Source of the DNA: Antedon mediterranea
Lineage: Eukaryota; Echinodermata; Crinoidea; Comatulida; Antedonidae
Assembly: GCF_964355755.1 (NCBI RefSeq)
Contig: NC_092672.1
Span: forward strand, 7,564,001 to 7,628,000
Length of the DNA: 64,000 nucleotides
Direction of reading: 5' to 3'
Every line of letters starts with the position of its first letter. Position 1 is the first letter of the stretch. Below, in pieces: positions 3,001-41,089 of the stretch. A program made the translations under genes and the position numbers. Under the pieces are notes generated by a model. The model did not search any database and was not told where the DNA came from. It saw nothing but the letters and a program-made list of their open reading frames with translations.

Positions 3001-6000
3001 CACATCAATGCAATTCAATCTCTTTATTTATCTCATAAAAAAAACAAATAATACACATAATAAAGAGGAGTAAAATAAATTTAAAGAAGGTAGACCTCCA
3101 GGAAACCCCAAGGAGCTTGTGATAGAAGAAAAAAAAAGTTACAAAAGATAAATATAATAAAAAGCCTGAATCTTCTAATATAAAATACAAAACATGCATC
3201 AATTCCTGCAAATTTTGTTTTTTGCATACAAATTAGGCTGTGGGGTTGCCTGAAAGATATCACAGAATATTTTGGGTTTTTTACATAGCTTCAGCTGTGT
3301 ATCCAGATTTCAAATTTTTTAATTTTAAATAGAAAAGAACCAAAACTTTGAGATTGTTGGAAGTTTTATTATAAGATTTAAGACCTTACTAAACTTAACA
3401 CAAATTCTCCAAAAAAGAAAATTTCCACAAAATTTGTAATCATTAATTACTAATCGATACAGTACACTACTGTCTGATGTATTGGCATGCATATGGTAAA
3501 CACATCAAATACAAGTTCATTGAGAAGCTATAAGTGATTTCCCTTGTGGAAGATAAAACGTATGTTACTTCTAATGAATATATTCTCAGACGTTTTTGCA
3601 TCTTGTTGTCTTTATGTGCACTTGCATTGTGAATATAGTATGCCTACAGACTGGATTGTAATACTATAGGTTTTACACTTTTTTTTGCACAGGTTTTTAT
3701 AAAAAAATCACAAACCCTTGTTCTTACACACATGCAATGATTAAGAGAATAAACAATTTATAGACAGACCTTTTGCTTGCAATTATTATTGAGGTATTTG
3801 ACAAATTTCGAACATTTTGTTCTTTTTTCGGTTATGGTACTTTGTCTTTTGCTTTTTTTTTGGCTTGTTGGATAGTTTAGGATAGGAAATCGTGTGACAT
3901 ATGTGGAGATGTTCCCAATGCAAATAGAAAGTCACCTTTTTTATCTACGACAACCAACAAATTGGAGTGCCTTCCCAATTTCATCAGGGACATCTACACA
4001 ATGTTGCTATTTATTATAGTGTAATTTTAACATGTAATACCGCAGTACATTAGGTCTATGTAAACATGGTATTGGCGTTTCGATGTGTAAATGTTAATGT
4101 ACTGCTTTTATAGGAATATTAATATGTTGCTTAGTGAGAAATATCACAAATGTATGTATGGAATCGGCAATATTTAGCACCTGGTAATCCAGGTACTACA
4201 TTAAACACTGTTAAGTTGGCACCTGTTGGATGGTCATGTGTTAAGATTAACACCTGGTAGATAGTGTTTGCACTAGTTTGCATTTGTGCTGCACATTTGA
4301 ACTTGTCAATATGTGAATGGTGATTCTAAGTCCTAAAATGTGCTATCAGATAAAGTCTTAATTCAATATAACACATTAATAGTTTATTGTATTTTGTTTT
4401 ATATAATTCTAAATTCACATCTATTAACAATAATTTGTTTTAAGTTAATTTATTTTGTTACTAACATTTAGTTTGTTTTCTTAATTTATTTTAAATTCAG
4501 GGTCTGGATCAGGATACGAAGGAAGTGGACTAGGTAGAGTAGCCACACTGTTAATTGTCCAAACACTGTCCTTGTCAAATTTGTCCAATTCCAATACTGT
4601 AGAGCTTGTATTTTTTTAATTCTCTAGTTTTGCCATTTTCGTAATTTTCATCATTTTTTAAGATAGTCAAATTACCATCCATTTTTACATTGATGCCTTT
4701 TCTTAAATTACCAACCAGATTTACAAAACCTTAAACAAGTCCGCAGATCTAAATTTTTACATTCCTACTTTCTGAAACAATTCTCTTCTTAAATAAGGGC
4801 ATATAAAAGATACAGAGCTCTACAGTTCATTGCAGATCAAAATCAAAACATTCTGTTAAATTAAGAAATAATCCATAATTGTTTTGTTTATCGAGCTGTT
4901 TACTATCTGTTCTCTTGTTTATCATCTGTTTTATTGTTTGTCATAAGTTTAAAGTAGAGGTTGTGGATTATTGAATTTGTTGAATTAAATAGATTATTGT
5001 ATTGCATTAAAGTAAAATTGTTTATTTTGTTGGACATTTACTTTTTTTTTAATTCTTGGTGCCTGTCAACAAGTTCTAATAATTAATACTCACTAAAGCT
5101 GGGTTCCCACTACAATGAAATACAATGTTGTATGCACTAATTGAATGACAAATTACTAGTTTTGCATTACATCCTTGTATTGTCTCAATTTGATATTTAT
5201 CATTGACAAAAACAATATGTCCTTTGGTTTGGTAAAACTAATTGAATGTTTGTGTTATTTTATTCAATGTTGCTCAATTTCTGTGATGTGCTTGGTAACT
5301 CTAACTTTTCTCAAAATGTTGTTATTGTTGCTAAAGTACCTATAACACTACGCTATTTCTTGTGTAAATTCACTACATCATTTCAATCATATTTCACATA
5401 CATTTACAAGCTTTCATTTTATTCTATATGTGGATAAAATAAGTTATTAAACCGTCTTTTTTATACCTTTTTTATTATTCAATAATTCATCTTTTTGTGT
5501 TTTCTTGTATGGTGTAATTTAATACTAAAAGGTATATCTAAACATAAAAATTAATCTGTAGGAGTAAAGTTTAAATCATGTTTATACCATTATCAATAAA
5601 CCAGTTTGTTCCAGTATCAGTAAATCAATACAAGTTTAAAACAGATAAAGAAACCAGTTATACCAATATCAGTATCAACACTAGTTTATATCAGTATCAA
5701 TACACCAGTTTATTCTAGTATCATTAACCAGTTTATTCTAGTATTAGTAAACCAGTTTATTCCAGTATCAGTAAACCAATACCAGTTTATGCCAGTATCA
5801 ATAAACCAGTTTATGCCAGTATCAATAAACCAGTTTATGCCAGTATCAATAAACCAGTTTATGCCAGTATCAATAAACCAGTTTATGCCAGTATCAATAA
5901 ACCAGTTTACGCCAGTATCATTCAATCAAAAGTCATCAAAATAAGTACAGTATATTTACACTTTAATAATGTCTTATTTTGAATCAAGGTTCTGGGTCTG

Positions 6001-9000
6001 GAGAAGATGATGGTTCAGGTAAACGTTGCGATACTAGGTACAACTGTTTTTATGGAACGTGCGAACAGACTGATGATGAGTTTGGTCGCTGTAGTTGCAA
6101 GTTTCGCTGTCCTCTTTTACGTGAACCTGTTTGCGGTTCAGATGGCAAGACATATGCTAGTGAATGTAACATGAGAGAGCATTCCTGCAAGAGCAGTAAA
6201 TATATAGCTGCCACAAAGTATAGCTCTTGTGAAGGTAAAATTTATTTTCATAGCTCATATAACTGTATTCTTATACGGTAGAACCATTATTAGGGGGATA
6301 CCGTCAGGACCAAACAAAGTTTCCCCTGAATGACGTGTCTCCTGATTAGGGGTTGGCTTTCCAAAGAAAGTGTCCTCTTAATATGGATGTTTAAAGCATT
6401 TCTTGCCTTCTTTCATTTCACAAGATCGTGTCTTCATAACAAGGGTGTCCTCTAGTAAATAAATATTTTATTTTGCAGAAGATTTTGGGGCCTGTGATGG
6501 TGAGACACCATTAAAGAGACCAGGTACTAATAAAGATCTGTACTGTGGACCAGAGGAAGGTTCTGATACCTGTCCTGAGAAAAGTTACTGTCATACCAAT
6601 ACAGAGAAAACATTTGCTAAATGCTGTCCAGGTGAGAATATTTTTTTATTGTGAATTGTTAATTATGATTAATCAATATATTGATTTTTGTAAAAATCAA
6701 AATTGATTGTTGTTGATATGGTAAATTGATAAGACCATTCAGCTACCATTAATGTTACTATCTTTAAAGTGATTTTAATAAGTACACTTCTTACTTAACA
6801 TATTCATTGTGTATATATCAATAATATCTATTTTTTTATAATGATTTTCTTATAATTATTTTCTTATACAATGCATCATTTTTGTCATCTAGCTTTTCCA
6901 GGTTTGTTAAAATGACAGTGATACAGTTTTGCACAATATTTTCTGTGTTTCTATATTGTATGGTTCACCCACCTTAGTATAGTATGTAGTTTACTTGAGA
7001 TGTGTGTCATCCTTACTGGGTAAAGTGATGTGACCTATTGTGTTATTTGTTTGATATATTGTAATACTGTTGTAAAATTATGAAGCCTTCCTCAAATAAA
7101 AAACGAACAACCATTGTACTTTGAGTCTTGGTGCCATACAGTGTATGATTGAGTGGCAGATATTATTTTGTGGTGAAAAAACTTCTTTGACCAGCAAACA
7201 ACAAAGAACCTTATTAGTAGATAAAAGATTTTCCTAGTTTACCAGGTGTTGTTACCAGTTCTTGTGAGAGTATGTGGCTTATTGTGTATCAGAATGCTTT
7301 TGTCTGGAGCCGCCTAGTATTAAAACTACCTGTTTTGTTTAGTAAGGTTATTCCATTTGCCAGTCATCTCATAAATGGTTTGATGAATTCTTATATAGCT
7401 TTAGATGGTGGTTTTCAAGCACCATTTCGGATTTTCACACTGTGTTTCAACACATTCTGCTTTTTGGTAGCACCTAATTAATTGTTCTTCTATTTAATGT
7501 TGATAAAACTGCACTTCTGTTTCTGTTCTGTCAGAGATATGTTGATTTAACATGCACAATTTATTTAGTATGACTATTAAGATAAGGTTAATCACTTTAG
7601 CCACCATAATTTTAAGGAAATTCTATAAAATTATGAAAATATTAAGTGTTATTATTAAAATTTACTATTATTTTCAGAGGAAAAAACTCATGGATGCACA
7701 GAGTCTATGTATGGTTGCTGCCCAGATGGAAAAACTTCTGCAAGAGGAACAAACTTTGCAGGTTGTCCAAGTAAGTATGCATTTTAAATCTCCTAAAATG
7801 ATTATTAGATTTGACTTAATACACTGGTTCTTGCAATCCCACCAAATATAAAACACCAAAAGCCATATGTGATTAAGGAATGAGAAACTACATTTTATTC
7901 ATTATCATTTTTGTAAAGGCTTGTGCAAATGTAATGAGCTAGGATCCTATAGAAGAACATGTGACCCAACATCTTTCCAGTGTTCGTGTAAACCGGGTGT
8001 TGGTGGAAGCAGATGTGATCGGTGTGAACCAGGCTTCTGGGACTTCAGAGGAATTCAGAATGGAAATAGTGGTTGTCGAGGTAAATTATAGTTTACAATA
8101 TACCTTTACTTTCAAAACTAAACATTTCTTTTGTATTCTTTATACCAGGTGACCTCTTTTGTACAAGACTTCCCCTCCCCCCCTCAGAGGGTCAGTACAC
8201 AACTTACAAAACAATTGATACCATTCACAAAACACAGCACAACCAACCACCACACATCAAATGTTTACATATCTTTTAACTGTAAACCAAAATCTAGGAA
8301 GTTCACTATGCCATAGTACCAAGATTTCTCCAAAATTGTGCCACTGCCTATACTTGGAGACTTGGTTAAGAACGCAATGTTTTCCAATACTGTGTTTTGA
8401 TAAAAATTCCAACTAGGTTTTGAATAACCTGATGATACGTTGTGTAATAAACTATTGTATGTATTGATGGCCTGCATGTCATGTGACACGCCCAAGTTTC
8501 AGCTTAATTTAAATGTACCAATATTATTATACTTTAGCCTGTAGTTGTCAGCCTGGTGGATCGATACGTGATGATTGTCATCAAATGACTGGACAGTGTC
8601 TATGTAAAGAATCTGTTATGGGAATGAAGTGTGATATCTGTCCATTTGAAGAAGTTATGACATCATCTGGATGTAAGTACAACATCTGAATTGTATTGTT
8701 TAACTTAACTTTCACTGTACTTGTATATAAGCATACAGTATAGGACATTTGAATACCTTATAATTAACTGACTTACTTTATTATTTTAGGTGAGTTACTG
8801 GAACCAGGTCAGGTGGTCAAATCATGTGATGAGCTAGAATGTCGTTATGGATGCAGTGAAGCAAGAGGTGTAGCAACATGCAAGTGTCCTGTTAGCTGTC
8901 CAGATGTTGGACCTGTTTGTGGAAGTGATGGAGCTACATACGCTAGCGAGTGCATGCTTGACCTGGTTGCGTGTCGAACCAATCAAAATCTGCGACTAGT

Positions 9001-12000
9001 ATCAAGAGAAAAATGCAAAAGTAATAACATTTTGTAATTCTCCATTCTTTATGTCAAATGATTTAATAAACAATGCTTCAACTCACCAATAATTGATTAT
9101 TGATTGTATTTATTCAGAACCTCCTCCATGCCCATCGACAAACTGCCAAGTACTGTGTCCACGCGGATTTGAACAAGATGAGAATGGATGCCAAACATGC
9201 AAATGCATTGGTAGGTTGTTTTATAATAATGTTTGCTCCAAAAGTTCTTATTAACATTTTGAACTATTAAAAATAAGTTTTTACCCAGCAACTAATAAAA
9301 TATATATTTTGACAAGTTTTCACTCTGAATTTATTCTTTTTACCATAGCAGAACCAACAACAAGCCCCGATATTGTCACTGAAACACCAGAGGTAAGCTC
9401 TGAATCACCAGAGGTAAGCTCTGAATCACCAGATGTAGTCACCACAAAGTCGGAAATTGTCACCATGGCACCAGAAAATATCACCATGGTGCCAGAAGAT
9501 GTCACTATGGCCCATGAGGATATGTCAACAACACCAATGCAAACACAGCCAGGAAAACTTCTTACTGCTGATATGTCTACATTGGAGCCTGATGAAATGG
9601 CAACAACAATCATTGAAGGAGTTACTTACAGAACTGAATTGGTAACAGAGTATCCAAAGGAAGTCACTGGCGAACCAAAGATGGAAACTGATGGCCAACC
9701 ATCAAAGACTGATCAGTTTTTCACATCAAACATGATTGTAATGGAAACAAGTACTTTATATGAAACAGTAACCATTGATATTGATAAGACAGAGAAAATG
9801 GTTTCTGGTAAGACACTGAAAGCCACTGAAGAATCAAAACTAGAGGTCACTCCAGAACCTCTGATCCAGACAACACTTCTAGCTACTGAAGTTGTTACTG
9901 AACGTGTAGACATGGGACCCATACCAACCTCTTCAGAAAAACTTCAACAGCAGACTACTGGATTTGGTATGGAACCCACTAAAATGTCCACAGAGATAGT
10001 AGAAAAAGATGTTACTGAGACAGTAGAAAAAGATGTCACTGAGGCAGTAGGAAAAGATGTCACTGAGACTTTAGAAAAAGATGTCACTGAGACTTTAGAA
10101 AAAGATGTCACTGAAACATTAGAAAGAGATGTAACTGAAAAGACAGAAATAGTTACAGAGAAAGTTATTGCTACTGAAATGTCCAATGTCAGAGTCACAA
10201 AGAATATTCCAGTTACTACTATGCCATCTGATGATGAAGATCTCTCTACAGAAATGGGTTCAGGGACAGGTAAAGTTACAGTTTCTATACAATAAAAGAG
10301 GTAGTTTCTGGATGATTAGATTTGGAGTTTTCTAGTTGGTGGTTTTCCTAAGCAGGTAGCCTCAACTGTCTTTGAGGGCACTTCTGTTTGTTAAAATGTG
10401 TAAAAATAGTGTACATTATAGCTTCTTCTTACGGACACCCTGTTCAGCTGATACCCACATTTAGCTCCTTTTTGATGTTACATCATTGGTTTTTTGCATT
10501 AGGTGAAGATCTTGAGCAAGGTGGTACCACACCAGTACTCATGACAAATATTGTTGGAACCACAGTAATGCCATTGTACACTGGATCAGGATGTGAGATG
10601 ACTAAGTTTGGTTGCTGTGAGGATGGTATTACACCATCTGATGGTCCTGATGGAATGGACTGTCCGCTGGTTGGTAAGTAAAAATCTTATTCATTTAAAA
10701 AAAGTTCTTTAAATAGATTTTTTCCATATAGTTAATATCCATATGTTCAGAAAAATATGTGCAATTGTAAGTGAAGTGAAATTTATTATTTTCAACTGTT
10801 AAAATGTTAAGCTCTGTCAACACTATCAAACCAATTTGAAAAAAAGTGTGACGTGCCAAAATAATAATGGTATAAAAATAAAACCAGTATATCATCGTAT
10901 ATACATTTGATTGTCACACAAAGTTTGATAGTGTAGACAGGGCTTAAGTAACTGTTAACTCAATTCACTGTACTGATTCATTTTAGTGACAACACCTGAA
11001 CCACCACCGCCAGCATGTGACTCTGTGATGTGTCAACATGGAGGTTCCTGTATCAACCGAATGGAAGAGCCTGGATTTATCTGCTTGTGTCCTCTTGGTA
11101 GAAATGGTCCTGTATGTGAAGAAGGTAAGGAATTTGTAGGTTTAATAAGTTATCACTGACCATAGAATGAAAATGTCATATAGGTTTTTTTCTGTCAATA
11201 AATGTGAAATAAAAAAAGTAATATAAAAAGAAACAAAATAATTGAATGTTTTTCGACATTATATTCAATTCAGCATTTAAGGGGCAGGGTAGTTTTTACA
11301 AAGCTTTTTTCTTTTAAGGAAAAGTGTTCAGAAATATTTTGTTACAATTTTAATTTTTAGAAACTGAATACACCACTCCTTCATTCTCTGGTCATTCATA
11401 CATTGCCTTTGAGAAGAGACGACGAACGGCAAGCTCAACAGAAATTGAAGTTGAATTCTATCCAGAATCTGATACAGGCATCCTCTTCTACTCATCTTCG
11501 TCTGATGGAGATGAGTTTATTTCAATAGAAATTGTTGACGGTTTTGTAGAGTTCAGGTTTGTTTAACATATTTTTTAATTTTTTGCTTGTGCTTTTTTAT
11601 TTATACTATTTCATTTCTATAGTAATATTTTTTTTCATAAATAAAAAATGTCACTGCTTTTCTGTGTACAGTCAGACCTTCAATACTAGATCAAATACAG
11701 TAATTATGTAAAAAAGTGTAACGTTTTTCAAGCATGACATTAACATATCAGGTGTTACATCCTCAGGTGGCAAGGTAAAGATGATGGTATCGCTAGGACA
11801 ACAATCGCCATGCCAACCACAGACAACAATAACGAGTGCGTCTTCATTAGTTTTTACCATGGTTTTATGTTCAGAAATTCTTCCATGGTTACGCCTCTTA
11901 AGCAATTCATTTATGCTAACAATACATGTTTGACTTTATTTGCCAGTATTCATATCCAGCAATCTTCTAACTCTACCATATTATACTGCCTTTATTATTA

Positions 12001-15000: not shown

Positions 15001-18000
15001 TGTGGAGATATATTTGTGGATCCCTGTGAAGGTAACTTGTGTCGATCTGGTTCAACGTGTGTGACTCTACCTGAGGGTGGATATCGATGTGATTGTCCAA
15101 TTGGCTTGCAAGGAGAGAAATGTGAAGAAGGTAAATAATGCACATCTCCCATTTATTGTGGTGTCTGTAATCTCTGTGGTTACCATGAGCTCGGTGACAC
15201 AACACCATGAAGGACGCCATAGCATAAGCAGAACCAATGCAACTAGCTAGCATTGGACGGCTCCATATGAGTACTCAGCCAGTGGCCTTTGTATTCTGTG
15301 TTACGCCACTGCATGGGCTGTGCGTGCTAGTACTGTAGATGGCCTAACGCTCTGTCTACACTATCAAAACTAGACAAAAAAAGTGTAAATGTGCCCAATT
15401 ATGGTAGTGATATGCCCAAATAGTTTATAGTGATATGACATCATCATGTCCATATATGGGCACATTACGGGTTAAATTATTGATTGCATTATTACATTTA
15501 ATACACTATTATATTACATTTTTTTGTGTTAAAAGAAGTTGTAGAGGAAGTGTACATCCCAGCCTTCTCTGGTATATCCTACATTGAGAGACCAGGACTT
15601 AAGAATCTTGCAGACCAGACAAGTATGAATATCTCATTCTTAACAAAGGCAAAAGATGGTATGATTCTGTACAATGGACAAAAAGGATCCAATAGAAATG
15701 GAGATTTCATTTCTCTTAATATGGTTAATGGATTCTTGGAATTCAGATACGATCTTGGTGGAGGAGAAGCAAACATTAAGTAATTAACGATTTTAAATTT
15801 AAATTGGATATAATTAAACAATAACAAAACAATATTAGCATATTCAACTTTTTTAGCAGATCTAACAAGTTTAATTAACACATTATTTTTATAACTTTTA
15901 AATAGTGTCTGTACTGTACTTGTTTATTGTTTTAAACATTGTTCATTTATTTAAAACTGATTTGATATAAAAGACCAATAAAGGATGAATTTAATTGAAT
16001 TTTCTGTGATGAAGTTTACCTTTTTATAGGTGTATATTGATAACAATAAATTTTAAAAACTAACTTCCACCAAAACAAATAATCAACTTTAAACTTCTTG
16101 CAGGAGTGAAACACCTTTATCTATGAATGAATTTCATGATGTTTATGTGACACGAAATCGCAGAAATGGAATGATGGTGATTGATAATGGTACACCAGTA
16201 TCTGGAAAATCTAAGGTAAAAAAATGTCATAGAATTGAATTGTCAACAAATGATGATATCATGTTACTATTATATGCCGAACGAGATTTGGACTTATTTA
16301 CGCACACCGTGTATGCGGAACCTGTGTGCAAACAATTTTGTTACTAAAACTCAATTTTTTAATTTTATATATCTCATGTGTTTATATTGTTTTACTTTTA
16401 AATGTTTGAAGCTCACTAGTATGGAGAGCCGTTTCGATAGTGCGTACCTGAAAATGGAATAAAATTAAATAAAAATAAGGTACTAACTTTCTAACAAAGC
16501 AACTTTTCTTTTCATGATAAAGGGAACTCAGTCCCAGTTGAATCTAGGTGGAAATCTATTTATTGGTGGAAGTAGAGATTTCCAGTTTGCTACACGAGCA
16601 AGAATAACAACTGGTCTTACTGGTGCCATAGATAAAGTGAGTGCTTTTACATTTGAAAATAGATTATTAATCTATAAAAATGTACATTTATTTTAAATAA
16701 ATATGTTACACTGTAACAAATACAAATATATTTCATTCAAAAAATTGAAAATAAAGATTTGATAATATTTCAAAATATATGCTAATTTTGATACATTCAT
16801 AGTTCATGGTCAGAGGAGAGATGGTTGATGATTTGCTAGAGGGCGCCATTAATATTGTTGAAGTTACAAACTACCAAGATGATGTTTGTAAGAATTCTCC
16901 ATGCATGGATGGTTACATGTGCATGAAAAACGTAACTACGTACGCCTGTGTTTGTCCCCCCGGTAAATTTGACACCGAAAATGGTTGTGCTTCTGAAATA
17001 GGTAAGCTTAGAGTTGACAGCTTGAACTTTACTTTACCTTTATCAATCCAGTGAAGATTGATTGATCAATCTATGTAAATATGATTTCCTATATGAACAA
17101 ATACAATTTGAAATAATGACTGGCCTCAATTTGTTTTATATATCAAACTTAAATGGGCAATCTGATATACTAGTGTTGTACAGTATGTAAAAGTTTATAA
17201 CTGATTTTTAATTTCAGATCCAGGCATGGTATCAGATGTTCAAACAACGCAGAAACCAACCATAACACCATCAAATAATATCATAGGTCTTGATGGAAAT
17301 ACCACCCTAGCATACCCATCTGGGGGTAAAATAAGGTAAGAAAATTATCTTGAGTGCTGTACCTTTGAATAGGAGCAACACGTCTTTTAAGGCCTGAACA
17401 ATAAGCGGTTTTGCAATGAACAAAACAGATTGTGTTTACGAGTGAATTCTTGTAATGTAATGTAGGGCAGAGGTGAGAAGACAGTTACAAATGATGCTTT
17501 ATTAAAATAGCAAACTGAAATAAAATGCAGACAAAATGATGCTTTATTCAAATAGGCAACTGAAATAATAATAATTCTGATATATCTTAACATAAGTAAA
17601 ATTACAGTATGTTTTGCTAACCCAGTTGCAGAACTTTTGTGTATAATTAATATAAATTTAAATAATTTTACTTCTAGTATATCTTTTACTAATATGATAC
17701 TAGCTTTGAATAGAAAGTATTATTTGAATAATAATATAATTGGTTTGTAATTGTCTAATGGATTTGAAAATGTCTTTTTTACCATCCAATCTTGAAAGAA
17801 ACTGATGGTGCCTTAACAGTTCTTTGCAAGTTTTCTTTCAATTTTAATTTGTTAAAAAGACATTTGAAAATTATTTTGTTACTACAAAACAGATGAACAG
17901 TTTTGTCTGATTATGTTGTTGTAACCTAATCAGTATAAGTGTTGTGTTAAATTAACTATACTCACATAATACTAAATTGTAGTAGATAAGATTCCTGATT

Positions 18001-21000
18001 TTATTTTAGTTACAGACGCACTAAAAACATGTATGATAATAGTGTAGTGAAATATTCAGCAACTTATTGGAGTACTATACGGTAAAAACAACAACAAACA
18101 AATAAAATACAACCGACTTCTTTGCTACATCTTCATCAAATATCATGTGTGGATTTTCCAAATTTAGCTTTACCTATTTCCAGGGAGTTGTAAAATACTT
18201 TACAACTCCATGCTTTTTCTTTCAACATATCAATTTTCTCTAGTTAATGTAAAAAAAACACCAAATCATGTTCTTTTTAAAAGCAATGTTTTCATACAGC
18301 ATATAGGCAATCCATACATAATTTATCACACATAATAAATCGAATTACATTAAGAATTGTATTTTAGGAATGAAATATACATAATTAGTGTTTGAAAATT
18401 TAATTTTAAACCGATATAAGGATCGATGTATGTATTCATCTTTACCAAAACCCTTGCACAAACTTGAAAACATTCCAATTGTTAGAATGTGTATGTATAC
18501 ATTTCAAAAAGGAAAATTGGCTTTTAAACATTGTTTACGAATATCTTTCTAAATGTATGACTGTTGTAGGTAGTAAAAATTGATTATACTAAATTAGATT
18601 ATTATACATTCAGTTTTAGTTTGGAAACTATTTGTTTGACTTTGACAGAAGCACCACAAGGCAAAACATTTTGCTTTGTGAAATCTGCCATTTTGATAAG
18701 ATAAGATAAGATAACTTTTATTGATCCTCAAAAAGGAAATTCATTGCTCGTCATAATAACAAAGAAAACACAATAAAAACAAATATAGCATAAAACCATT
18801 CATATAAAAACATCTAAAAAATTACAAGATAAAATTATCTTCTTGACTTCCTGTTGTACTGGAGGATACCGGAGGGAATAAAGGATTTAGCAAATCGATT
18901 TGTTTTCACACTGAGGAGCCTCAATCTACCACTTGGATTAAGTAGGTCTATGATCACTTTGTGGAGAGGATGAGAGGCATCCGACTAAATAGGGTTGATT
19001 TCTTTTTAAATTTGTTTTGTATAAAATATAATAATATGAAAAACATTAATATGTATTCTTATGCTTGCAATGGAAGGTTACAATGCATGAACTGAGTTTT
19101 GTTTGATATTAAGATTTTAATCACAATATCTTGGGATTGGTAGCCATCTAAGTTACAACTCTTCTATTTATACCATTCACTTATTTAAAATTTCATAACT
19201 ACTGCACTACTTAATGTTTGATGTGACAGTAATATATTTTAGATAATAGTTTAATCAATTTTGTCATTGGTGTGATTTTGCTTGCCATTTTACTTCATCT
19301 TTACACCATGTCATATTTCATTTTCTATTCACAGTGGCGACGAAACGGTTGCATCTCTTCGGTATTAAAACTTACAATTTGTTCAACAGTTATAGTTGCA
19401 TGAACTTTAACCTTTGCATGCCTGCATGTTTTCTCCATTCCATTAACAGTTAAATTAAACTACGTAATAAAACTAACTACTCTATGTGCCAAACTTTTAG
19501 AGAGTTGGACATCTATCCTTTCTTTTAGATTTATTGTGTAGACGATTTCAAATATCTAAATAAATTGTTCATTTTTTAGCAGTGTTGGAAAACTACAATA
19601 TAAGATATCAAATATCTATCAGAGATATATATGATCTTTAAACAATAAATACATATTACAACAACACTTTGTTAAAATTTCTTTGTTCCAATTCAACACT
19701 TCTTTCCAATTCCAATTCCTTCTTTTGGCAGGGTGTTGAAAACGGTGTTTTGTGAATAATCTTTATGCTAAACAAACTTTTTTTCAAAATTGCTTATTTT
19801 CAATTTTCTGCTTCATAGCTAAGGCTTTATTTTTTGCATTTTTATTGATAATTCAATTTACTTTTCACTTGGCATGGCATGGATAAATCACAATTTTATT
19901 ATTGAAATTGTTTTTTTTTTCTATAAAAAATGTATTTTTTATTTTTTCCATCTGGAAACATAATCAGAATGAAATACTATTGGTTTTTTAAACCTTCTTT
20001 TTGAGATTTTAGCATGTTTTTTCCATTTCTTTTCATAATTTCAGGGAATAGTAAAGGTTTTTTTTGTGTGTTTTTAAATTAAATTTTAACATTGTGTTAG
20101 GATGCTTGTTGGAAAACACATAGTTGCATGAGGGACATAAAGCATTTAAAAAATAGTATACAATCAAAGTAAAGTAACTTTCAATCATGCCAATTTCTAA
20201 TTGAATTTATTTTGATAATTCCTTTCATTATGGATAAATACAGTATTTACCAATCATACTTAAGTGAGACATGTTAACTTTTTTTTAAGGTGTCCCCTCA
20301 ATAGAGGTTCAACTGAACTTCAAAAGGGTTGCAAAGTAGATTAGTAGTTAAAAAAATATTCTAAAAAATTATTCAAATAATTAAAGACACCTTCCCTACA
20401 ATTTGTGACGTTTTGTTAAAATAATACATATATTACTTTAAAAACATTAAACCAGGTCATTTCTTGTCTTAAATGTACGTTTTGTGGTAAATTATGATAA
20501 AAAGTGAGAAACAATGCACTACCTAAGTAGCTCGCGTCGATTGACCTCTCGTACACGATCTTTAGGCCTAGCCTAGGTAGGCTTAGTTTTGTAGGCCAAG
20601 CTGGTAAACATCGGTAACGTACGAACATCATACGCTAGCTATATACCTAGCCTGACGTTGTATAGTTGCTGCATTAATTGTCTATTTTTGCGAGACTCCG
20701 TTGATACAAATTGGGGAAAAACCGATATTTTCGCTGAAAAGTTAGGAGTCTTCCATTTGTTTTGGCCTCACGATCGATCGAAAAGTTGGTGAATTACAAA
20801 AGAAAAACAAAAATATCAATCCGCGCGCAATGCATTTTGGGATATATAGCGGGCCGCTATAATTATTAGATTCGAATTATTTTTCACATTTTTAACCATT
20901 TAAAGACGAAAACAGTTATCGCAATAGGACCATATAGTACATTAAATATCGTTTGTGATCTTAAATTAGATCTAAATAATGTAGGGAAGGTGTCTTTAAC

Positions 21001-23048
21001 TATCACTAATTTTATTTTAAAAGAGTAAAAGCAGCCAGATCCAGTCAGATTGAATTGGATGTAAGGACTGTCAACAAGTCTGGTGTCATCTTATGGAATG
21101 GCCAAGATAATGGAAAGAGTGGAGACTTCCTTGCCATAGCTATTATCAATGGACTTCCAGAATTTTCCTACAATCTTGGTTCAGGCACGCTGCGCATCAA
21201 ATCCAACATTCCGATTAACGATGGACAATGGCATAGAATATATGCTATGAGGCAAGTATTGATAATAATAATTGATAATAATATTCGGGCATTCCAACCT
21301 TACCGATTTCTCCAGGAGCCTTGCAAATTTTCAGCCGATTCCCCGAATATTAACAAAATCTCCCGAAATATTGGTTTTGGATGAAAACATTTATTATTAT
21401 TTATTCTCATTCAGTGAAAAAACCTCTAATTTGTAAGGTGCAGACATAATGTGTGGCTGAGTAGATGATGGGGAGCTAAATTGTGATATCCTATTTGCTG
21501 ATTTTCAGTGCAATGTTGGAATGTTCTGTTAAAATATTTGAACAAAATTGGTAGAGTTAGTTTCATTTCCCAAGATCTTTTAGTGAAAGTGTACATATAA
21601 TTGGTCAGATGTTTTGGCCTACTCTGACGTAATTTGTACTTCATACGAAGTAGGTTCTAAGTGGGTTCGAGTTCCATCCTAGAATTACTTGCGAATTGTT
21701 TCGTAAGTATTCTCAAATGTACTTAGTATGAAGTACAAATTACGTCAGAGTAGGGCAAAACATCTGACCAATTACTCAACTCCCTGACGCAAAGCTACTT
21801 CACAGTAGTTTAATACAATTACAACCCTAATTAATAATTGTTTATTTTTATATGTAGAAATCTGAGGGAAGGTAGTCTGCAAGTAGATGAGGATGAACCC
21901 ATTCTTGATACGTCAAAAGCAGCCTCAACTCAACTTGATACAAATGGACTATTAATATTAGGTATGTAAACAGCTTGTGTGATGTGCCCAAATATGGTAG
22001 TGATATGCCCAAATATGGTAGTGGTATGACATCATCATGTCCATTATTATATGGGCACGTCACGTCATGTTTTTGTCACATAAAGTTTGATAGTATAGAC
22101 AGATCTTAAGAGGTTACACATTCATTAGAATAAAGTTAGTTCATACTTTGTGCTTAATCCTGAACTATAATATATGTTGTAAAGTCTAAAATGCATCTCT
22201 CTCTTTTTTAACATCTTTTATACAATTTCAATTTTTTATTTCAATTATTAACAACAACCCAATTAGCAGCAACTTATAAATTACATGGTGTTTACAGAAA
22301 ATATAAAACATTTACAGAAATACACATACCATACTCAAGGAAAGACATTTACAAAGAATTATTAAATTAAAAAATTATTGCATCCACAAAATCAGTTTCT
22401 AATTTATAGTACAATTATTTAAAACTATCTATGTATTTTAGCAATATGAAACTAATAAAGGCATAGTACTAAATTTTAAAATGGTTTATAACAATTATTG
22501 GAATATTTCACTGTTGAGACAGCGAGTGAGGATAAGGTATTGCATTATTCCTATATCTATATGTTACCTCCATCAAAATGGCTAGAGGTTTTGTGGTCAA
22601 TTGCATGTGTCTGTATGTGTGTTTGTTTCTTTTTATATTTGTTAGCAGGATTACTCAAAAAGTTATTGCTCGATTTTCATAAGATTTTAAAGGATGATTT
22701 CATTCCTGTATGGGAACACGTCATTAGATTGTCATATGCTATAGGCAGAGGTTTGCGCTCTCTGAGTGCCCTTCTAGTTTGTAATTGATGGGTTGATATA
22801 AATAACTTTTTGTTTATAGTACTAATTAATGTGTATATAAATGAATAACACTATTTTTAAAAGCCATGTTAACATTTTTACTATCTTCCAAAACAGGTGG
22901 TGTTGATTCTTTATCAGCAAATGCACCGTCAGAATACAGGAACATGTTTGTAGGTTGTGTCAAGAATGTTCAAATAGTTGGAAACAATTTAAAATTAGTA
23001 GATGATGCTATCGGCCAGAAACCAACTCAATTCTGCAGTGAGAACTAA
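3..23048 (+). CDS. agrn: Agrin-like heparan sulfate proteoglycan, 3' part of gene (about 28 constitutive exons + 2 putative cassette exons)
   Basis: Secreted basement-membrane and synaptic proteoglycan. The 5' end lies outside the window. Joining the exons listed separately gives an unbroken frame of 1701 codons plus a stop at 23046-23048, all introns GT-AG except one GC-AG. The order of Kazal domains, SGSG cluster, Cys module, two laminin-EGF, Kazal, Ser/Thr region, Cys module, EGF, LamG, EGF, EGF, LamG, EGF, LamG matches vertebrate agrin almost module for module. Short matches such as [10 protein letters not shown] in the first LE module and LQV, ILWNG and VGCV in LamG3 leave little doubt. 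Differences from vertebrate agrin: an extra lustrin-like module, an extra antistasin-like module and no SEA domain. By family knowledge the LamG domains bind dystroglycan and LRP4; here that is inferred from homology only. Confidence 0.95.
241..330 (+). repeat. tRNA-like SINE fragment (possible)
   Basis: Contains aagcttggtggtcttgag and a B-box-like ttgttcaagtcccac. Similar words occur on the minus strand near 40946-41010. Not a convincing intact tRNA. It lies in an agrin intron. Confidence 0.3.
494..712 (+). CDS. agrn: agrin exon: Kazal/follistatin-like domain
   Basis: Phase 1-1 exon after aaattcag. It begins VTDKAALC and carries [14 protein letters not shown], the Kazal core [14 protein letters not shown] and a closing GLC before gtaagg. 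The coding frame stays open past the donor but loses homology there. Confidence 0.93.
1575..1781 (+). CDS. agrn: agrin exon: Kazal/follistatin-like domain
   Basis: Phase 1-1 exon with [21 protein letters not shown], the Kazal core [15 protein letters not shown] and the closing SLGLC before gtaagc. Preceded by ttatttcag. Confidence 0.93.
1900..2063. repeat. MITE-like inverted repeat (AAGCTTGGTTCTCA family)
   Basis: Starts aagcttggttctca and ends ttggatccaagctt, with internal gtcgcttgtgattggt. The same core occurs at 39071-39171. Lies in an agrin intron. Confidence 0.5.
2333..2533 (+). CDS. agrn: agrin exon: Kazal/follistatin-like domain
   Basis: Phase 1-1 exon with [14 protein letters not shown], the Kazal core [14 protein letters not shown] and the closing FDGRCEQ before gtgagt. 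This is the last Kazal domain before the GAG-attachment exons. Confidence 0.93.
2884..2916 (+). CDS. agrn: agrin microexon: acidic Ser-Gly GAG-attachment segment 1
   Basis: 33-nt phase 1-1 exon between ttacacag and gtattt, encoding [12 protein letters not shown]. Acidic residues followed by SGSG are the usual signal for heparan or chondroitin sulfate attachment. It lies exactly where vertebrate agrin has its ECGSGGSGSGED segment. Confidence 0.8.
2917..4500. other. agrin intron, no feature seen
   Basis: AT-rich intron between the two GAG microexons. I saw no ORF with homology and no clear repeat. Confidence 0.6.
4501..4533 (+). CDS. agrn: agrin microexon: Ser-Gly GAG-attachment segment 2
   Basis: 33-nt phase 1-1 exon after tttaaattcag and before gtagag, encoding [12 protein letters not shown]. 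Same length and phase as the previous microexon, so it can be skipped or kept without breaking the frame. Confidence 0.78.
   Translation, partial: GLDQDTKEVD
5580..5925. repeat. 24-bp minisatellite in agrin intron
   Basis: Tandem copies of gccagtatcaataaaccagt plus ttat. Five or more near-perfect units lie between 5790 and 5925, with degenerate copies upstream. An apparent minus-strand ORF here (DTGINWFI repeats) is just the repeat read in frame. Confidence 0.9.
5989..6234 (+). CDS. agrn: agrin exon: GAG-attachment segment 3 plus Kazal domain
   Basis: Opens with [14 protein letters not shown], a third SGSG/acid cluster, and continues into a Kazal domain with [14 protein letters not shown]. 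Ends SSCE before gtaaaa. Joining the two 33-nt exons to this one gives a continuous Ser-Gly cluster as in vertebrate agrin. Confidence 0.93.
6276..6460. repeat. dispersed repeat (attaagggg-acac type)
   Basis: Shares words such as attagggggatacc and gtgtcctcttaata with segments near 14487, 24893 and 39400. Short degenerate copy in an agrin intron. Confidence 0.4.
6479..6631 (+). CDS. agrn: agrin exon: lustrin-type Cys-rich module
   Basis: Phase 1-1 exon. Core features are [30 protein letters not shown] and a terminal FAKCCP, the spacing of the lustrin Cys-rich repeat (C..G.PL....CG.....CP..Y.C......CCP). Vertebrate agrin, as I know it, goes from the last Kazal to the CCxD module without this insert. 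The exon is bounded by ttttgcag and gtgaga and fits the frame on both sides. Confidence 0.85.
7678..7770 (+). CDS. agrn: agrin exon: GCC-x-D Cys module before laminin-EGF
   Basis: Phase 1-1, 93 nt. Encodes [19 protein letters not shown] and then NFAGCPS, matching the vertebrate agrin segment YGCCQD...ARG...AGCPS just before its laminin-EGF pair. Confidence 0.93.
7919..8080 (+). CDS. agrn: agrin exon: laminin-EGF module 1
   Basis: Phase 1-1. [29 protein letters not shown] and DFRGIQ are the LE signature with eight Cys, almost identical in layout to vertebrate agrin LE1. Confidence 0.95.
8538..8672 (+). CDS. agrn: agrin exon: laminin-EGF module 2
   Basis: Phase 1-1. [20 protein letters not shown] followed by [15 protein letters not shown]. 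The last Cys codon is split over the next intron. Confidence 0.93.
8790..9020 (+). CDS. agrn: agrin exon: Kazal domain after the LE pair
   Basis: Phase 1-1. [23 protein letters not shown], the Kazal core [15 protein letters not shown] and the closing REKC before gtaata. Corresponds to the single Kazal domain C-terminal to the LE modules in vertebrate agrin. Confidence 0.94.
9118..9210 (+). CDS. agrn: agrin exon: antistasin-like Cys module
   Basis: Phase 1-1, 93 nt. Encodes [20 protein letters not shown] followed by CQTCKCI, with the antistasin pattern C...C...C..GF..D..GC..C.C. Not part of vertebrate agrin as I know it. Flanked by tattcag and gtaggt and in frame on both sides, so probably a real insert module. 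Confidence 0.82.
9349..10269 (+). CDS. agrn: agrin exon: Ser/Thr-rich mucin-like stalk
   Basis: 921-nt phase 1-1 exon rich in Thr, Ser, Glu and Met, with many VTMAP/VTTE-type motifs suited to O-glycosylation. It includes six 8-residue repeats of the type VEKDVTET and ends [14 protein letters not shown], an acidic Ser-Gly site that may carry a second GAG chain. Corresponds to the first S/T region of vertebrate agrin. The open frame upstream of the acceptor at 9348 is intronic. Confidence 0.92.
9999..10142 (+). repeat. 24-bp coding tandem repeat (VEKDVTET x 6)
   Basis: Six consecutive 24-bp units of the type gtagaaaaagatgttactga plus 4 nt, in frame in the Ser/Thr exon of agrin. Units differ by a few substitutions (VEK, VGK, LEK, LER). 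Confidence 0.9.
10503..10673 (+). CDS. agrn: agrin exon: CCEDG Cys module
   Basis: Phase 1-1. Starts GEDLEQGG and ends with [20 protein letters not shown] and DCPLV, matching the vertebrate CCSDGKTPS...NCPA segment. In vertebrates the SEA domain follows; here the next exon starts the EGF. Confidence 0.92.
10807..10947. mobile_element. MITE, TTAA-flanked (family AAGCTCTGTC...)
   Basis: TTAA then gctctgtcaacactatcaaa at the left, and gtttgatagtgtagacaggg then cTTAA at the right: imperfect TIRs of about 24 bp enclosing 141 bp. Relatives lie at 15345-15480, 21975-22110 and 40231-40407. Confidence 0.7.
10987..11124 (+). CDS. agrn: agrin exon: EGF domain 1
   Basis: Phase 1-1. [40 protein letters not shown]: a six-Cys EGF. 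Preceded by a Pro-rich linker, with a 313-bp intron upstream that is too short to hide a SEA exon set. Confidence 0.94.
11361..11556 (+). CDS. agrn: agrin exon: LamG1 part 1
   Basis: Phase 1-2. [31 protein letters not shown] and [11 protein letters not shown] are the first strands of a laminin-G fold. Confidence 0.92.
11557..13928. other. agrin long intron within LamG1
   Basis: 2.4-kb AT-rich intron. Apart from a tandem duplication at about 12060-12445 I see nothing supportable in it. Confidence 0.6.
12060..12445. repeat. imperfect tandem duplication, about 190-bp unit
   Basis: Two diverged copies share ctaaacaaac, ggatctctt, a gactttgaat/ggctttgaat block and cataccycccarccagatac. Confidence 0.55.
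13929..14144 (+). CDS. agrn: agrin exon: LamG1 part 2
   Basis: Phase 2-2. [20 protein letters not shown], then [12 protein letters not shown] and [11 protein letters not shown]: the middle LamG strands including the conserved W-H and GSLQVD. Follows a 2.4-kb intron. Confidence 0.94.
14485..14575. repeat. dispersed repeat (ctctattaaggg type)
   Basis: acctctattaagggcaaact followed by gtcctctaaaaaggg, related to the copies at 24893 and 39400. In an agrin intron. Confidence 0.35.
14631..14848 (+). CDS. agrn: agrin exon: end of LamG1 and most of EGF domain 2
   Basis: Phase 2-1. [18 protein letters not shown] closes LamG1, then [17 protein letters not shown] and CKCVEGFFG form the EGF. NATC is a potential N-glycosylation site. 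Confidence 0.94.
14993..15130 (+). CDS. agrn: agrin exon: EGF domain 3
   Basis: Phase 1-1. GPLCGD completes EGF2; [13 protein letters not shown] and [16 protein letters not shown] make EGF3, the back-to-back EGF pair between LamG1 and LamG2 that is typical of agrin. Confidence 0.94.
15345..15480. mobile_element. MITE copy of the AAGCTCTGTC family
   Basis: Left end cgctctgtctacactatcaa, internal gtgatatgacatcatcatgt and a palindromic cccaat...gggcac core. The right TIR is not clear. In an agrin intron. Confidence 0.55.
15536..15779 (+). CDS. agrn: agrin exon: LamG2 part 1
   Basis: Phase 1-2. [37 protein letters not shown] and [15 protein letters not shown] correspond to vertebrate LLLYNGQK...GDFVSLAL...[10 protein letters not shown]. 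Donor is aa|gtaatt. Confidence 0.95.
16104..16215 (+). CDS. agrn: agrin exon: LamG2 part 2, ends at the y-site position
   Basis: Phase 2-0. [20 protein letters not shown] and then [10 protein letters not shown]. The exon ends directly after the basic KSK, at the place where vertebrate agrin inserts the alternatively spliced KSRK (y site). Confidence 0.93.
16523..16636 (+). CDS. agrn: agrin exon: LamG2 part 3
   Basis: Phase 0-0. [20 protein letters not shown] and then TGLTGAIDK, matching vertebrate LYVGGAPDF...GFDGAIQ. Confidence 0.93.
16803..17001 (+). CDS. agrn: agrin exon: end of LamG2 and EGF domain 4
   Basis: Phase 0-1. Ends LamG2, then an [23 protein letters not shown] and [14 protein letters not shown]. 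Corresponds to the single EGF between LamG2 and LamG3. Confidence 0.92.
17218..17335 (+). CDS. agrn: agrin exon: linker and start of LamG3, ends at the z-site position
   Basis: Phase 1-2. A Thr-rich linker followed by [18 protein letters not shown], aligning with vertebrate LAFDGRTFVEYLNAV. The exon stops where vertebrate agrin has its z (B) splice site; the next constitutive exon begins at 21024. Confidence 0.88.
18010..18081 (+). CDS. agrn: agrin putative cassette exon (24 aa) at the z site
   Basis: 72-nt, phase 2-2 open segment between ttgattttattttag and gtaaaa. It encodes [14 protein letters not shown] and then [10 protein letters not shown] with split Ser and Arg codons at the ends. 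Length and phase allow inclusion or skipping without a frame change. It carries Asn-Ser-Val, which fits the NxI/V pattern of the vertebrate z8 insert. Its expression is unproven. Confidence 0.55.
18690..18985 (-). mobile_element. 5'-truncated LINE fragment (RT C-terminus and 3' tail)
   Basis: On the minus strand, codons for [20 protein letters not shown] appear, the common C-terminal motif of CR1/L2-like reverse transcriptases. Next comes a 3' UTR with tcaataaaagttatc and a (TTATC)n tail, seen on the plus strand as ataagataagataag. Stops lie further upstream, so it is dead. Inside the agrin z-site intron. Confidence 0.65.
19335..19361 (+). CDS. agrn: agrin putative 27-nt cassette microexon (9 aa) at the z site
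   Basis: After a long pyrimidine tract and ttctattcacag; donor tcg|gtatta is weaker. Phase 2-2, encoding SGDETVASL with split end codons. In size and position it resembles the vertebrate z8/z11 exons. Could be chance. Confidence 0.45.
20381..20999. mobile_element. TTAA-flanked TIR element, 619 bp, non-autonomous
   Basis: Perfect 20-bp terminal inverted repeats: ttaaagacaccttccctaca at 20381-20400 and its complement at 20980-20999. Both start with TTAA, consistent with a piggyBac-type target duplication (inference). No transposase ORF. The right end lies 24 bp from the LamG3 exon. Confidence 0.75.
21024..21251 (+). CDS. agrn: agrin exon: LamG3 part 1, GC donor
   Basis: Phase 2-2. [40 protein letters not shown] and [12 protein letters not shown]...[10 protein letters not shown] match vertebrate LamG3 (LVLWSGK...DYVALAIVDG...YNLGS). 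The donor reads atgag|gcaagt, a consensus GC-AG intron; the next exon at 21858 continues the frame exactly. Confidence 0.94.
21599..21773. mobile_element. foldback MITE with 48-bp arms
   Basis: Left arm 21599-21646 begins aattggtcagatgttttggc; right arm 21726-21773 is its near-exact reverse complement. The 79-bp loop has no coding. It sits in the GC-AG intron of agrin. Confidence 0.8.
21858..21961 (+). CDS. agrn: agrin exon: LamG3 part 2
   Basis: Phase 2-1. [20 protein letters not shown] and then [14 protein letters not shown], matching vertebrate QREGSLQVGNEAPVTG...TQLDTDGALWLGG. Confidence 0.94.
21975..22110. mobile_element. MITE copy of the AAGCTCTGTC family
   Basis: gatgtgcccaaatatggtag occurs in two near-tandem copies, followed by gtatgacatcatcatgtcc and the right end aagtttgatagtatagacag. 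The left TIR is missing. Confidence 0.55.
22560..22786. repeat. widespread dispersed repeat ending GCAGAGGTTTGCGCTCTCTG
   Basis: Contains ttactcaaaaagttattg and ggcagaggtttgcgctctct followed by gagtgcccttctagttt. Degenerate forms of this block are familiar to me from many animal genomes. The apparent membrane-protein ORF through it is incidental. Confidence 0.55.
22897..23048 (+). CDS. agrn: agrin terminal exon: end of LamG3 and stop
   Basis: Phase 1 to stop. [20 protein letters not shown], then [19 protein letters not shown] and TAA, matching the vertebrate C-terminus VGCLRDVVV...LLEDAVTKPELRPC. Confidence 0.95.
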
Positions 23049-28477: not shown

Positions 28478-30875
28478 GGTTCTAGGACACCTACCCCCTA
28501 GACAGTTACCCCCCGGATATTTACCACCCGGACAACTACCCCCTTAGGACAACTAACCCCCGGACAACTAACCCCCGGACAACTACCCCCCGGACAACTA
28601 CCCCCTTAGGACAACTACCCCCTTAGGATAACAACCCCCCGGACAACTACCCCCCGGACAACTACCCCCTTAGGACAACTACCCCCTTAGGATAACTACC
28701 CCCCGGATAACTACCCCCAGGTCAACTACCCCCCGGTCAACTACCCCCCCCCCCCCAATCCAAAAGTAGACAAACGGTTTCTGTAAAAATGAAATCATCT
28801 GTTTCGAAACTAGAGACCCGAGAACAGAGACCTGACACGAGGCCCAATACGAAAAGGGAGACCTATATTTGGGTCTCCCTTTTCGTATAGTGTGGTCTCT
28901 CTTTTCGTATAGTGGGGTCTCCCTTTTTGTATATTTAGGTCTCCCTTTTCGTATATTAGGGTCTCTTTTTTCGTATAGTGGGGTCTCTCTTTTCGTACGT
29001 GGGTCTCTCTTTTCGTATATTTAGGTCTCCCTTTTCGTATTGGGTCTCTGGTCTCTGGTCTCGGGTCTCTAGTTTCGAAACACCCGTTTTTACGATTATT
29101 CTGTTTAACAGCACGCTAGACCCTAGATGTGCTAGATTTAAAGTACCGTATTTATTGACAAAACGGCCTGGGCTGTTTATTGTTTAGGTGGTTTTTAGGT
29201 GGACATTTATTGGAAGAAAGTTGTTTATTCAATGGGAGGGGGTATAATCTAATGGAAATAGACGCCGATTATTAATTCCATATGATGTTTCATGGGAGTG
29301 ACATGATCACCGTTTATTTGAGGTGAATTTATTTAAAGATCGCCGTTTATTCGGTGAGTGAACATTGAGGTCAAATATCAAAAGTGATATTATTCTTCAA
29401 GTGTACAAAAATACTTAGGCCTATATGACAAATTTGAGACAAAAATTAATTCTTTTAAGACCATTCAACAACCTGACTCTGCAACAGTGTATAATAGGAA
29501 TTAATAACTATATTTTAATTCGTTACTTTGACGAATTACTATTCATTATTGTAAACAAAAGTATAAGATTGAACATAAATTAATATAGCCTGGTATAAAC
29601 TGAAGATTGTCACACATGATCATAGGATAGTCGAACGTATTATATAGTACTCCCTGTATTTACTGTAAAGACTGGGTTCGCTAATAATAATAATAATTTT
29701 TGCGTCAGGACAATGCTTCGATAACCACTGGTCTTAAAAGAATTAATTTTTGTCTCAAATTTGTCATATATGTATTTTTGTACACTTGAAGAATAATATC
29801 ACTTTTGATATTTGACCTCAATGTTCACTCACCGAATAAACGTCGATCTTTAAATAAATTCCCCTCAAATAAACGGTGACCATGTCACTCCCATGAAACA
29901 TCATATGGAATAATCGGCGTCTATTTCCATTAGATTACACCCCCTCCCATTGAATAAACAACTTTCTTCCAATAAATGTCCACCTAAAAACCACCTAAAC
30001 AATAAACAGCCCAGGCCGTTTTTTCAATAAATACGGTACTTTAAATCTAGCACATCTAGGGTCTAGCGTGCTGTTAAACAGAATAATCGGTTAAAAACGG
30101 GTGTTTCGAAACTAGAGACCCGAGACCAGAGACCAGAGACCCGAGACCCAATACGAAAAGGGAGACCCACGTACGAAAAGGAAGACCCCACTATACGAAA
30201 AGGGAGACCCCACTATACGAAAAGGGAGACCCCACTATACGAAAAGGGAGACCCCACTATACGAAAAGGGAGACCCTAATATACGAAAAGGGAGACCTAA
30301 ATATACGAAAAGGGAGACCCAATTATACGAAAGGGAGACCCAAATATACAAAATGGGAGACCCAAATATACGAAAAGGGAGACCCACTATAAGAAAAGGG
30401 AGACCCACTATAAGAAAAGGGAGACCCCACTATACGAAAAGAGAGACCACACTATACGAAAAGGGAGACCCTAATATACGAAAAGGGAGACCAAAATATA
30501 GGTCTCCCTTTTCGTATTGGGTCTCGTGTCAGGTCTCTGGTCTCGGGTCTCTAGTTTCGAAACACCCGTTAAAAACAGATGATTTCATTTTTACAGAAAC
30601 CGGTCCTATATATTTGTCTACTTTTGGATGGGGGGGGGGGGTAGTTGACCGGGGGGTAGTTGACCGGGGGGTAGTTACCCGGGGGGTAGTTATCCTAAGG
30701 GGGTAGTTGTCCTAAGGGGGTGGTTGTCCGGGGGGTAGTTGTCCGGGGGGTTGTTATCCTAAGGGGTAGTTGTCCTAAGGGGGTAGTTGTCCGGGGGTAG
30801 TTGTCCTAAGGGGGTAGTTGTCCGGGTGGTAAACATCCGGGGGGTAACTGTCTAGGGGGTAGGTGTCCTAGAACC
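28478..30875. mobile_element. foldback (FB/Galileo-like) element with repeat-filled inverted arms, 2.4 kb
   Basis: Starts ggttctaggacacctacccc and ends with the reverse complement. Arms are ordered as follows: array A of ggacaactacccc units (28478-28756 and 30638-30875); a unique segment with aaatgaaatcatctgtttc; array B of tacgaaaagggagaccc units (about 10 left, about 17 right); and a 380-bp unique arm (29084-29463, matched by 29729-30110). The loop of about 265 bp has no coding. Long TIRs built from direct repeats are the hallmark of foldback elements. No transposase is present, and no clear target duplication was seen. Confidence 0.8.
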
Positions 30876-40000: not shown

Positions 40001-41089
40001 CGCTGCTTAGGACTTGAACCGCTCATGTAATAATAAAACTGAACATACACACATCTCCAACTTGGTGGTAACTCTGGACTTTGGATAGCCGCAATATGTT
40101 CAAGTCCGTTAGAAGATTTAACAGAAATGTAGTAATTGTCTGTGAAAAAAACAACAAAATATTCACGGGAGCGCTAACATAAAATATCAGTGGGTATATA
40201 TTAACGATTGACCTGGCATAAATTTAAACATAAAGCCCTGTCTGCGCTACCAAACTGACAAAACAAAGGGTGATATATGCCCATGGTAGTGATATGACAT
40301 CATCATTTCCATGGGCACATCACATTTTATTGTCATATGACAATAGAATATGATGTGCCCATATATAAACATTTATATAAAGTTTGATATTGTAGACAGA
40401 GCTTTAATAATGTGAATGAAAATAATAACAATTATTCAGAGGTTATTTAGACACTAATGATATGCATTGTGTAAGACTGTGTATGCATTTTATATGAAAA
40501 CACATACAGGAAACGCCCACCAAAGAGAACAGGTGCTAAGATGCCATTAGTCTCTTAGTTAAGTTCCCTGTCAATTTTGTTCTTATTAATTATGCATTTT
40601 TGCATTGTTTTTAAAAAACATTAATTTACATTGATGAATGAAATAAAAAAATACGTGTACTTATTTGATGAGGTGGGGAAGGAGTTATTGTAAGCGGTTG
40701 TTGGTACGAACATTTTCTTACCAGTTTCAACTGGTTTGCCTGTGTATGGATCAATATTGTTTTCTTCCATGGAGCGTTTCCAAGGCTCTAATTGAATTCT
40801 ATTAACCCATCCATCAAAATCGTCTTCAAAGTCAGAACAAAAGCCTGCAATTTCTGGAATGTAAAAATTACTAACAATTTCAGGGTTGAATCTATAATTA
40901 TATTTATATTTTATATAAGTATATAATTTGAGAACATCCGTAAGTAATTTTCTGGTGGGACTCGAATCCTCACAGATCACTATCTTTCGTACATCTCAAG
41001 ACCTTAGAGCCTTCGCCGATTGTTAGTATAGGATCGATCGATCGAGTTAAAGAAAGTAGCGAAGGTATGATAATTGTATAACCAATATT

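Follow-up and report, generated by a model that had tools for sequence, protein, structure and literature searches.

Z exons and regulated microexons

In vertebrate agrin, short exons at the z site make the protein build nerve-muscle synapses. The available text of a 2025 study (PMC12445529) lists Z8 and Z11 in vertebrates and Z6 and Z5 in Ciona, together with a putative amphioxus microexon encoding N-x-I. In the same text, the function of the chordate Z exons is the binding of N-x-I/V/F to LRP4, a constitutive N-x-I/V directly precedes the Z exons in agrins of vertebrates and invertebrates alike, and 18 YCAY are counted in the Ciona intron following Z5. In neither the nematode nor the sea urchin does the study find Z exons, and it concludes that the innovation is specific to chordates. 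Echinoderms have LRP4 homologues, according to the available part of PMC8006230, and a review of echinoderm agrin (PMC10381214) does not mention splice forms in its accessible parts. The literature searched, which covers the field in part and includes few subscription journals, yielded no description of a microexon at the z site in a non-chordate.

The second system relevant here is that of micro-exons enhanced by RBFOX. In mammals the splice sites of such exons are weak and their flanks long, and RBFOX bound in the 3' flank enhances them, as stated in the available part of PMC4317164. The regulators of microexons named in the accessible part of PMC10139058 are SRRM4, RBFOX, NOVA and PTBP1, the latter repressing the human Y and Z exons. 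The agrin gene considered below likely has a real z-site microexon of 27 nt, outside chordates, as judged from its sequence.

The agrin gene and the z-site intron

The window, that is, the whole analysed stretch of 64,000 nt, contains an agrin gene on the plus strand, whose 3' end encodes LG3 and whose stop codon is at 23046-23048. The best phmmer match of LG3 is agrin (8s9p_A, E 1.2e-66; 1q56_A, E 1.8e-34), with an alignment that extends as far as the C-terminal cysteine, and Pfam yields Laminin_G_1 (E 1.4e-31). The locus has three Laminin_G_1 matches (C3:7577930, 7579637 and 7585061), the family that the Pfam scan covered there, and Kazal-like and EGF-like stretches are seen in the translations by eye. 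The features of the LG3 region are:

17218..17335, plus strand, agrin LG3 exon upstream of the z-site intron, ending in phase 2 (AG/), from the alignment to 1q56_A
17336..21023, plus strand, z-site intron, 3,688 nt, phase 2
20377..21003, plus strand, MITE-like element of about 630 nt with 24-nt inverted ends, from the inverted-repeat and copy search
21024..21251, plus strand, agrin LG3 exon downstream of the z-site intron, from the alignment
21858..21961, plus strand, agrin LG3 exon, from translation, alignment and splice scores
22897..23048, plus strand, last agrin LG3 exon, with the stop codon, from translation, alignment and splice scores

The sequence-only reading had placed a 3.7-kb LG3 intron at the vertebrate z site, and the alignment confirms the flanking exons, the phase 2 and the position. 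When the intron segments are skipped, phmmer aligns the product with agrin 1q56_A without a gap across the junction, which reads GGKI-R-VKAA here, VTKS/EKAL being set against GKIR/VKAA. In agrin 8s9p_A, SGALHS immediately precedes EKALQ. We take 1q56 to be chicken LG3 lacking the insert, the alignment output printing 'Agrin' only, and SGALHS in 8s9p_A is presumably the end of vertebrate z11. Since the alignment runs ungapped through the junction and SGALHS stands before EKALQ, intron 17336-21023 is the z site. In LG1 and LG2 the equivalent position lies within exons (11361-11556 and 15536-15779), with no intron there in the translations read. The constitutive N-x-I/V is absent at the aligned place before the z site, with PSGG here against HNAV.

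Several other details of the gene may be mentioned. Exon 21024-21251 has a GC donor (GAG/gcaagt), so that intron 21252-21857 is of the GC-AG type; this short intron contains a 55-nt inverted repeat at 21598-21774, with arms 96% complementary and 67 nt between them. The MITE-like element stops 20 nt short of the LG3 acceptor at 21024, and it has at least 39 other long copies of 91–94% identity, as found by scoring 40 of the 2,215 first-look candidates. A minisatellite at 5624-5944 adjoins an agrin exon, and one of its frames consists of INQFMPVS units.

Open segments of the intron

The splice matrices were derived from 17 donors and 17 acceptors, all from the agrin gene of this window, and the coding log-likelihood model from 1,283 agrin codons; hence both rest on one gene. 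The z-site intron contains 81 open AG..GT segments of phase 2-2 and length 9–200 nt, and random genomic DNA yields about 0.63 segments per 3.7 kb that meet loose splice thresholds, so that little can be concluded from such segments by themselves. The highest splice sums in the intron belong to 18016-18081 (16.5), 18016-18030 (14.2), 19335-19361 (11.9) and 18010-18081 (11.7). Four segments thus have a sum of at least 11.5, whereas 150 shuffles average 0.97 (P 0.02) and 56 overlapping window tiles average 0.68, none of the tiles reaching four. Counted as places, the high-scoring segments of the intron are just two, and this number is not significant (P 0.24 for the shuffles, 0.07 for the tiles). 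Thus the splice scores alone do not decide the exon status.

Two of these segments had been proposed as cassette exons:

18010..18081, plus strand, open segment of 72 nt, judged to be due to chance by splice, coding, AG-free-zone and motif tests
19335..19361, plus strand, candidate cassette microexon of 27 nt, phase 2-2, open, from splice, coding, AG-free-zone and background tests

Both indeed have AG and GT borders, a length divisible by three and an open frame. As exons they part ways: the 27-nt segment is well supported by its sequence, and the 72-nt segment is at the chance level.

The coding log-likelihood of the 72-nt segment is −7.3, matched by 34% of 2,747 stop-free intron segments of the same length, and its GC content of 0.32 is reached by 42% of the segments. 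The AG-free zone in front of it measures 17 nt, or 4 nt if the 66-nt form is taken, and is shorter than in all 17 real exons. No motif is enriched near it, none of 16 motif-by-side tests being below 7.8%. The region 18010-18021 has two acceptor AGs 6 nt apart, and the inner one (18016), which gives the 66-nt form, scores better. Two further open segments encoding N-x-I, 17678-17716 and 17714-17746, were rejected as exons, having low GC and negative coding scores.

The 27-nt segment

The 27-nt segment encodes nine residues, SGDETVASL. Its acceptor scores 8.1 bits, within the range of the 17 real acceptors of the gene (0.5–10.4), and its donor, TCG/GTATTA, scores 3.8 bits, less than all 17 GT donors scored in the gene (4.7–10.1). 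The composition is coding-like: the coding log-likelihood is +6.3, matched by 0.8% of 7,373 stop-free agrin intron segments of the same length, and the GC content of 0.56, also reached by 0.8% of such segments, peaks within the segment itself. These figures are conservative, since the intron background still contains at least one unannotated agrin exon (6479-6631). The AG-free zone upstream is 83 nt, as compared to 22–103 nt in the 17 real exons; zones of at least 83 nt precede 3.1% of the 163 AGs of the intron and 1.8% of the 15,957 AGs of the background, a modest signal on its own.

A further background was formed by 15 readable random 10-kb tiles taken on both strands, that is, 300 kb of readable strands. 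Among the 55 background segments with an acceptor of at least 5 and a donor of at least 3.8, none has a coding score of +6.3 and none has three or more GCATG within 200 nt downstream; 13 of the 55 have an acceptor of at least 8 with a donor of at least 3.8, which amounts to 0.15 per 3.7 kb. Here the thresholds equal the observed scores, and the motif was tested after inspection. One of 1,000 dinucleotide shuffles has a segment equalling both the splice sum and the coding score of the 27-nt segment, and none has a segment with at least three downstream GCATG.

When the agrin gene was scanned in three frames, six of the 32 entries ranked above the 27-nt segment. They fall at 5989-6018, 6479/6482-6523 and 7678-7770, some of them in the wrong frame, and by eye we judged them to be agrin coding exons outside the training set. 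A repeat origin of either the 27-nt or the 72-nt segment was rejected, as the genome search with each region, in which very common words were skipped, matched that region alone.

According to one alternative, both segments are chance open stretches between AG and GT in an AT-rich intron, and neither is an exon. The abundance of open segments, the number of high-scoring places, which does not exceed that in the shuffles, and the weak donor of the 27-nt segment all agree with this. On the other hand, this segment unites splice, coding, AG-free-zone and motif signals, its coding score and motif count are unmatched in the background strands, and its combined scores recur in a single shuffle; we consider this explanation rather unlikely. 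A regulated 27-nt cassette microexon at the z site of this agrin gene is moderately probable, as far as its sequence signals allow one to judge.

Motifs flanking the 27-nt segment

Two groups of candidate regulatory motifs accompany the segment:

19264..19332, plus strand, seven YCAY (Nova-type) motifs just upstream of the candidate microexon
19398..19428, plus strand, three GCATG (Rbfox-type) motifs at 19398, 19416 and 19424, 37–67 nt downstream of the candidate microexon

The GCATG cluster is the only place in the 64 kb, on either strand, with at least three such motifs in 50 nt; if the span is extended to 100 nt, one other triplet place appears in the window, on the minus strand near 63.8 kb. 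Three GCATG in 150 nt are reached by 0.08% of 5,910 background windows, or P of about 0.013 after correction for 16 motif-by-side tests, the windows being overlapping. Genome-wide, the (T)GCATG triplet pattern occurs 1,782 times in the forward and 1,582 times in the reverse orientation, which is about 9.5 per Mb for both strands, or about one per 210 kb of strand. This is not above the reversed-pattern control (1,022 and 3,008). Among the matches listed, all triplet places are on contig C1, and mostly these are tandem arrays.

Upstream of the segment there are eight YCAY in 150 nt, a number reached by 0.37% of the background windows (about 0.06 when corrected for the 16 tests). Downstream, YCAY is not enriched: two occur in 150 nt, which is reached by 58% of the background windows, and 20 in the 1,662 nt to the next exon, as compared to 925 on the whole strand of 64,000 nt. 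Downstream TGC is at 3.2%, uncorrected, and the PTBP, CELF, MBNL, QKI and U-run motifs are unremarkable against the 150-nt background windows. Hence the motifs near the segment point to Rbfox more than to a Nova enhancer downstream.

The genome has genes for both factors. Exons of the Rbfox RRM are found on C1, matching query residues 1-22 at 95% and residues 31-72 at 67%, residues 23-30 being unmatched. A Nova gene is present, its KH1 match being 76%, with a 396-aa frame in which KH2 and KH3 are seen by eye. The Pfam families Fox-1_C and SRRM_C gave no match in the genome, and since the controls were silent as well, this has no bearing on absence.

The segment resembles the RBFOX-enhanced micro-exons of neurons and muscle in its length of 27 nt, a weak splice site, long flanks (1,999 nt upstream and 1,662 nt downstream), a GCATG cluster in the 3' flank with (U)GCAUG within 67 nt, and the presence of an Rbfox gene in the genome. 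It differs in that regulation is read here from motifs only, and in that the host is not a vertebrate.

We propose that the z-site intron would hold one cassette microexon, 19335-19361, skipped in most cells, the skip form, GGKI-R-VKAA, being the one that aligns gap-free with vertebrate agrin lacking the insert. Inclusion would take place in cells in which the three (U)GCAUG sites are occupied by an Rbfox protein, this binding compensating for the weak donor, and Nova may repress or tune the exon via the upstream YCAY sites. SGDETVASL would then be added at the LG3 site of the chordate z inserts. The splicing, its tissue specificity, the action of Rbfox and any change in ligand binding are what we infer from these signals.

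Alternatively, the segment may be a real microexon that is constitutive or tissue-neutral, gained in this lineage and not serving as a switch. A good acceptor and the coding composition fit such an exon, as does the dissimilarity to the chordate z exons. What makes it decidedly unlikely is the combination of a weak donor with a downstream GCATG cluster, which is the pattern of regulated exons in the available part of PMC4317164, as well as the gap-free match of the skip form to agrin that lacks the insert. The regulated cassette thus stays the preferred description.

Origin of the DNA and other features of the window

A homeodomain query yielded 40 matches, and 12 loci were taken out. Eleven of these form one run on contig C2 (7.83–8.21 Mb), and all eleven (L005-L009, L011-L016) contain readable homeodomains, in order; the twelfth, L010, is on C5, outside the run. 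A twelfth homeodomain match within the run, at C2:7848401 on the minus strand, is presumably posterior, which makes a cluster of about 12 genes. By eye, the run comprises Hox1 to Hox8, with Hox4 and Hox6 included, Hox9/10 and two posterior genes; these labels are our assumption. No UbdA-type tail follows the central Hox genes of the C2 cluster, and an ordered cluster without such a tail fits Ambulacraria. Hence the suggestion that the host is not a chordate holds: the Hox cluster is that of a non-chordate deuterostome, probably an echinoderm.

Eleven contigs of 22.3–41.4 Mb make up 353.5 of the 354.4 Mb of the assembly. Most echinoderms have 36–46 diploid chromosomes, according to the available part of PMC3308324, and this does not fit eleven. 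Crinoids presumably have eleven chromosome pairs. An echinoderm host is therefore regarded as probable.

Elsewhere in the window, the region 52634-55093 appears by eye to be a LINE-type reverse transcriptase with split frames; Pfam assigns RVT_1 to 53508-54219, below the curated cut-off, and to 54209-55093. The minus strand of 31700-62000 may contain a cluster of adhesion-GPCR-like genes, with Pfam matches to CUB (59486-59854) and 7tm_2 (45962-46183) and similar-looking frames elsewhere by eye; the frame 40621-40995 matched no Pfam family. Two arrays of a TKRETPLYEKGDP-like unit lie on opposite strands at 28679-30706 and look by eye like an inverted minisatellite pair.

Relation to the chordate Z exons

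The candidate microexon shares with the chordate Z exons its place in LG3, the microexon size, the length divisible by three and the frame open in the reading frame of the gene, and the skip form matches agrin without the insert. It differs in the peptide, in the host, which is not a chordate, and in having three GCATG downstream instead of a YCAY cluster as in Ciona. SGDETVASL has no N-x-I/V/F motif, and it resembles neither z8 (P 0.85) nor z11 (P 0.10). Since both the motif and the likeness are missing, the exon is not classed with the chordate Z exons. Judging by its position, it may act as a splice switch of the same LG3 loop. Since the LRP4-binding motif is absent, the insert probably changes another LG3 contact or none.

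The sequence-only reading had implied activation of LRP4/MuSK by the inserts, and this the peptides do not support. In its full form, such an explanation assumes two z-type cassettes that confer LRP4/MuSK activation as in chordates, and so overlaps with the preferred reading as regards the 27-nt exon. The exact z position, the N-S-V in the 72-nt peptide and the Nova gene in the genome speak for it. N-x-I/V/F, however, is found in 28% of the stop-free 72-nt segments of these introns, so that N-S-V is at the chance level; moreover, the 72-nt segment has a negative coding score and a short AG-free zone, the 27-nt peptide has neither the motif nor the likeness, and YCAY is not enriched downstream. 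Hence we regard two such cassettes as very improbable.

A related published case is the purpuratus sea urchin: its agrin, an echinoderm one, also has an intron at the z position. In the available text of PMC12445529, the results report no microexon encoding N-x-I/V/F there, and the discussion no potential Z exons; this comparison stresses N-x-I/V/F, and an exon without the motif, like the one here, might have gone unnoticed. The non-chordates named in that text are the nematode and the sea urchin.

Alternative splicing at the z site may be older than chordates. In that case the deuterostome ancestor would have had an Rbfox-run microexon that changed the LG3 loop with respect to a different ligand, and N-x-I/V and Nova control would be later gains of chordates, producing the LRP4/MuSK switch; on the present signals this scenario is tentative and quite unlikely. 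Whether chordates invented the splice switch by which agrin acts at the neuromuscular junction is under active discussion. If real, an ambulacrarian z-site microexon would mean that the splicing event and the motif binding LRP4 have separate origins.
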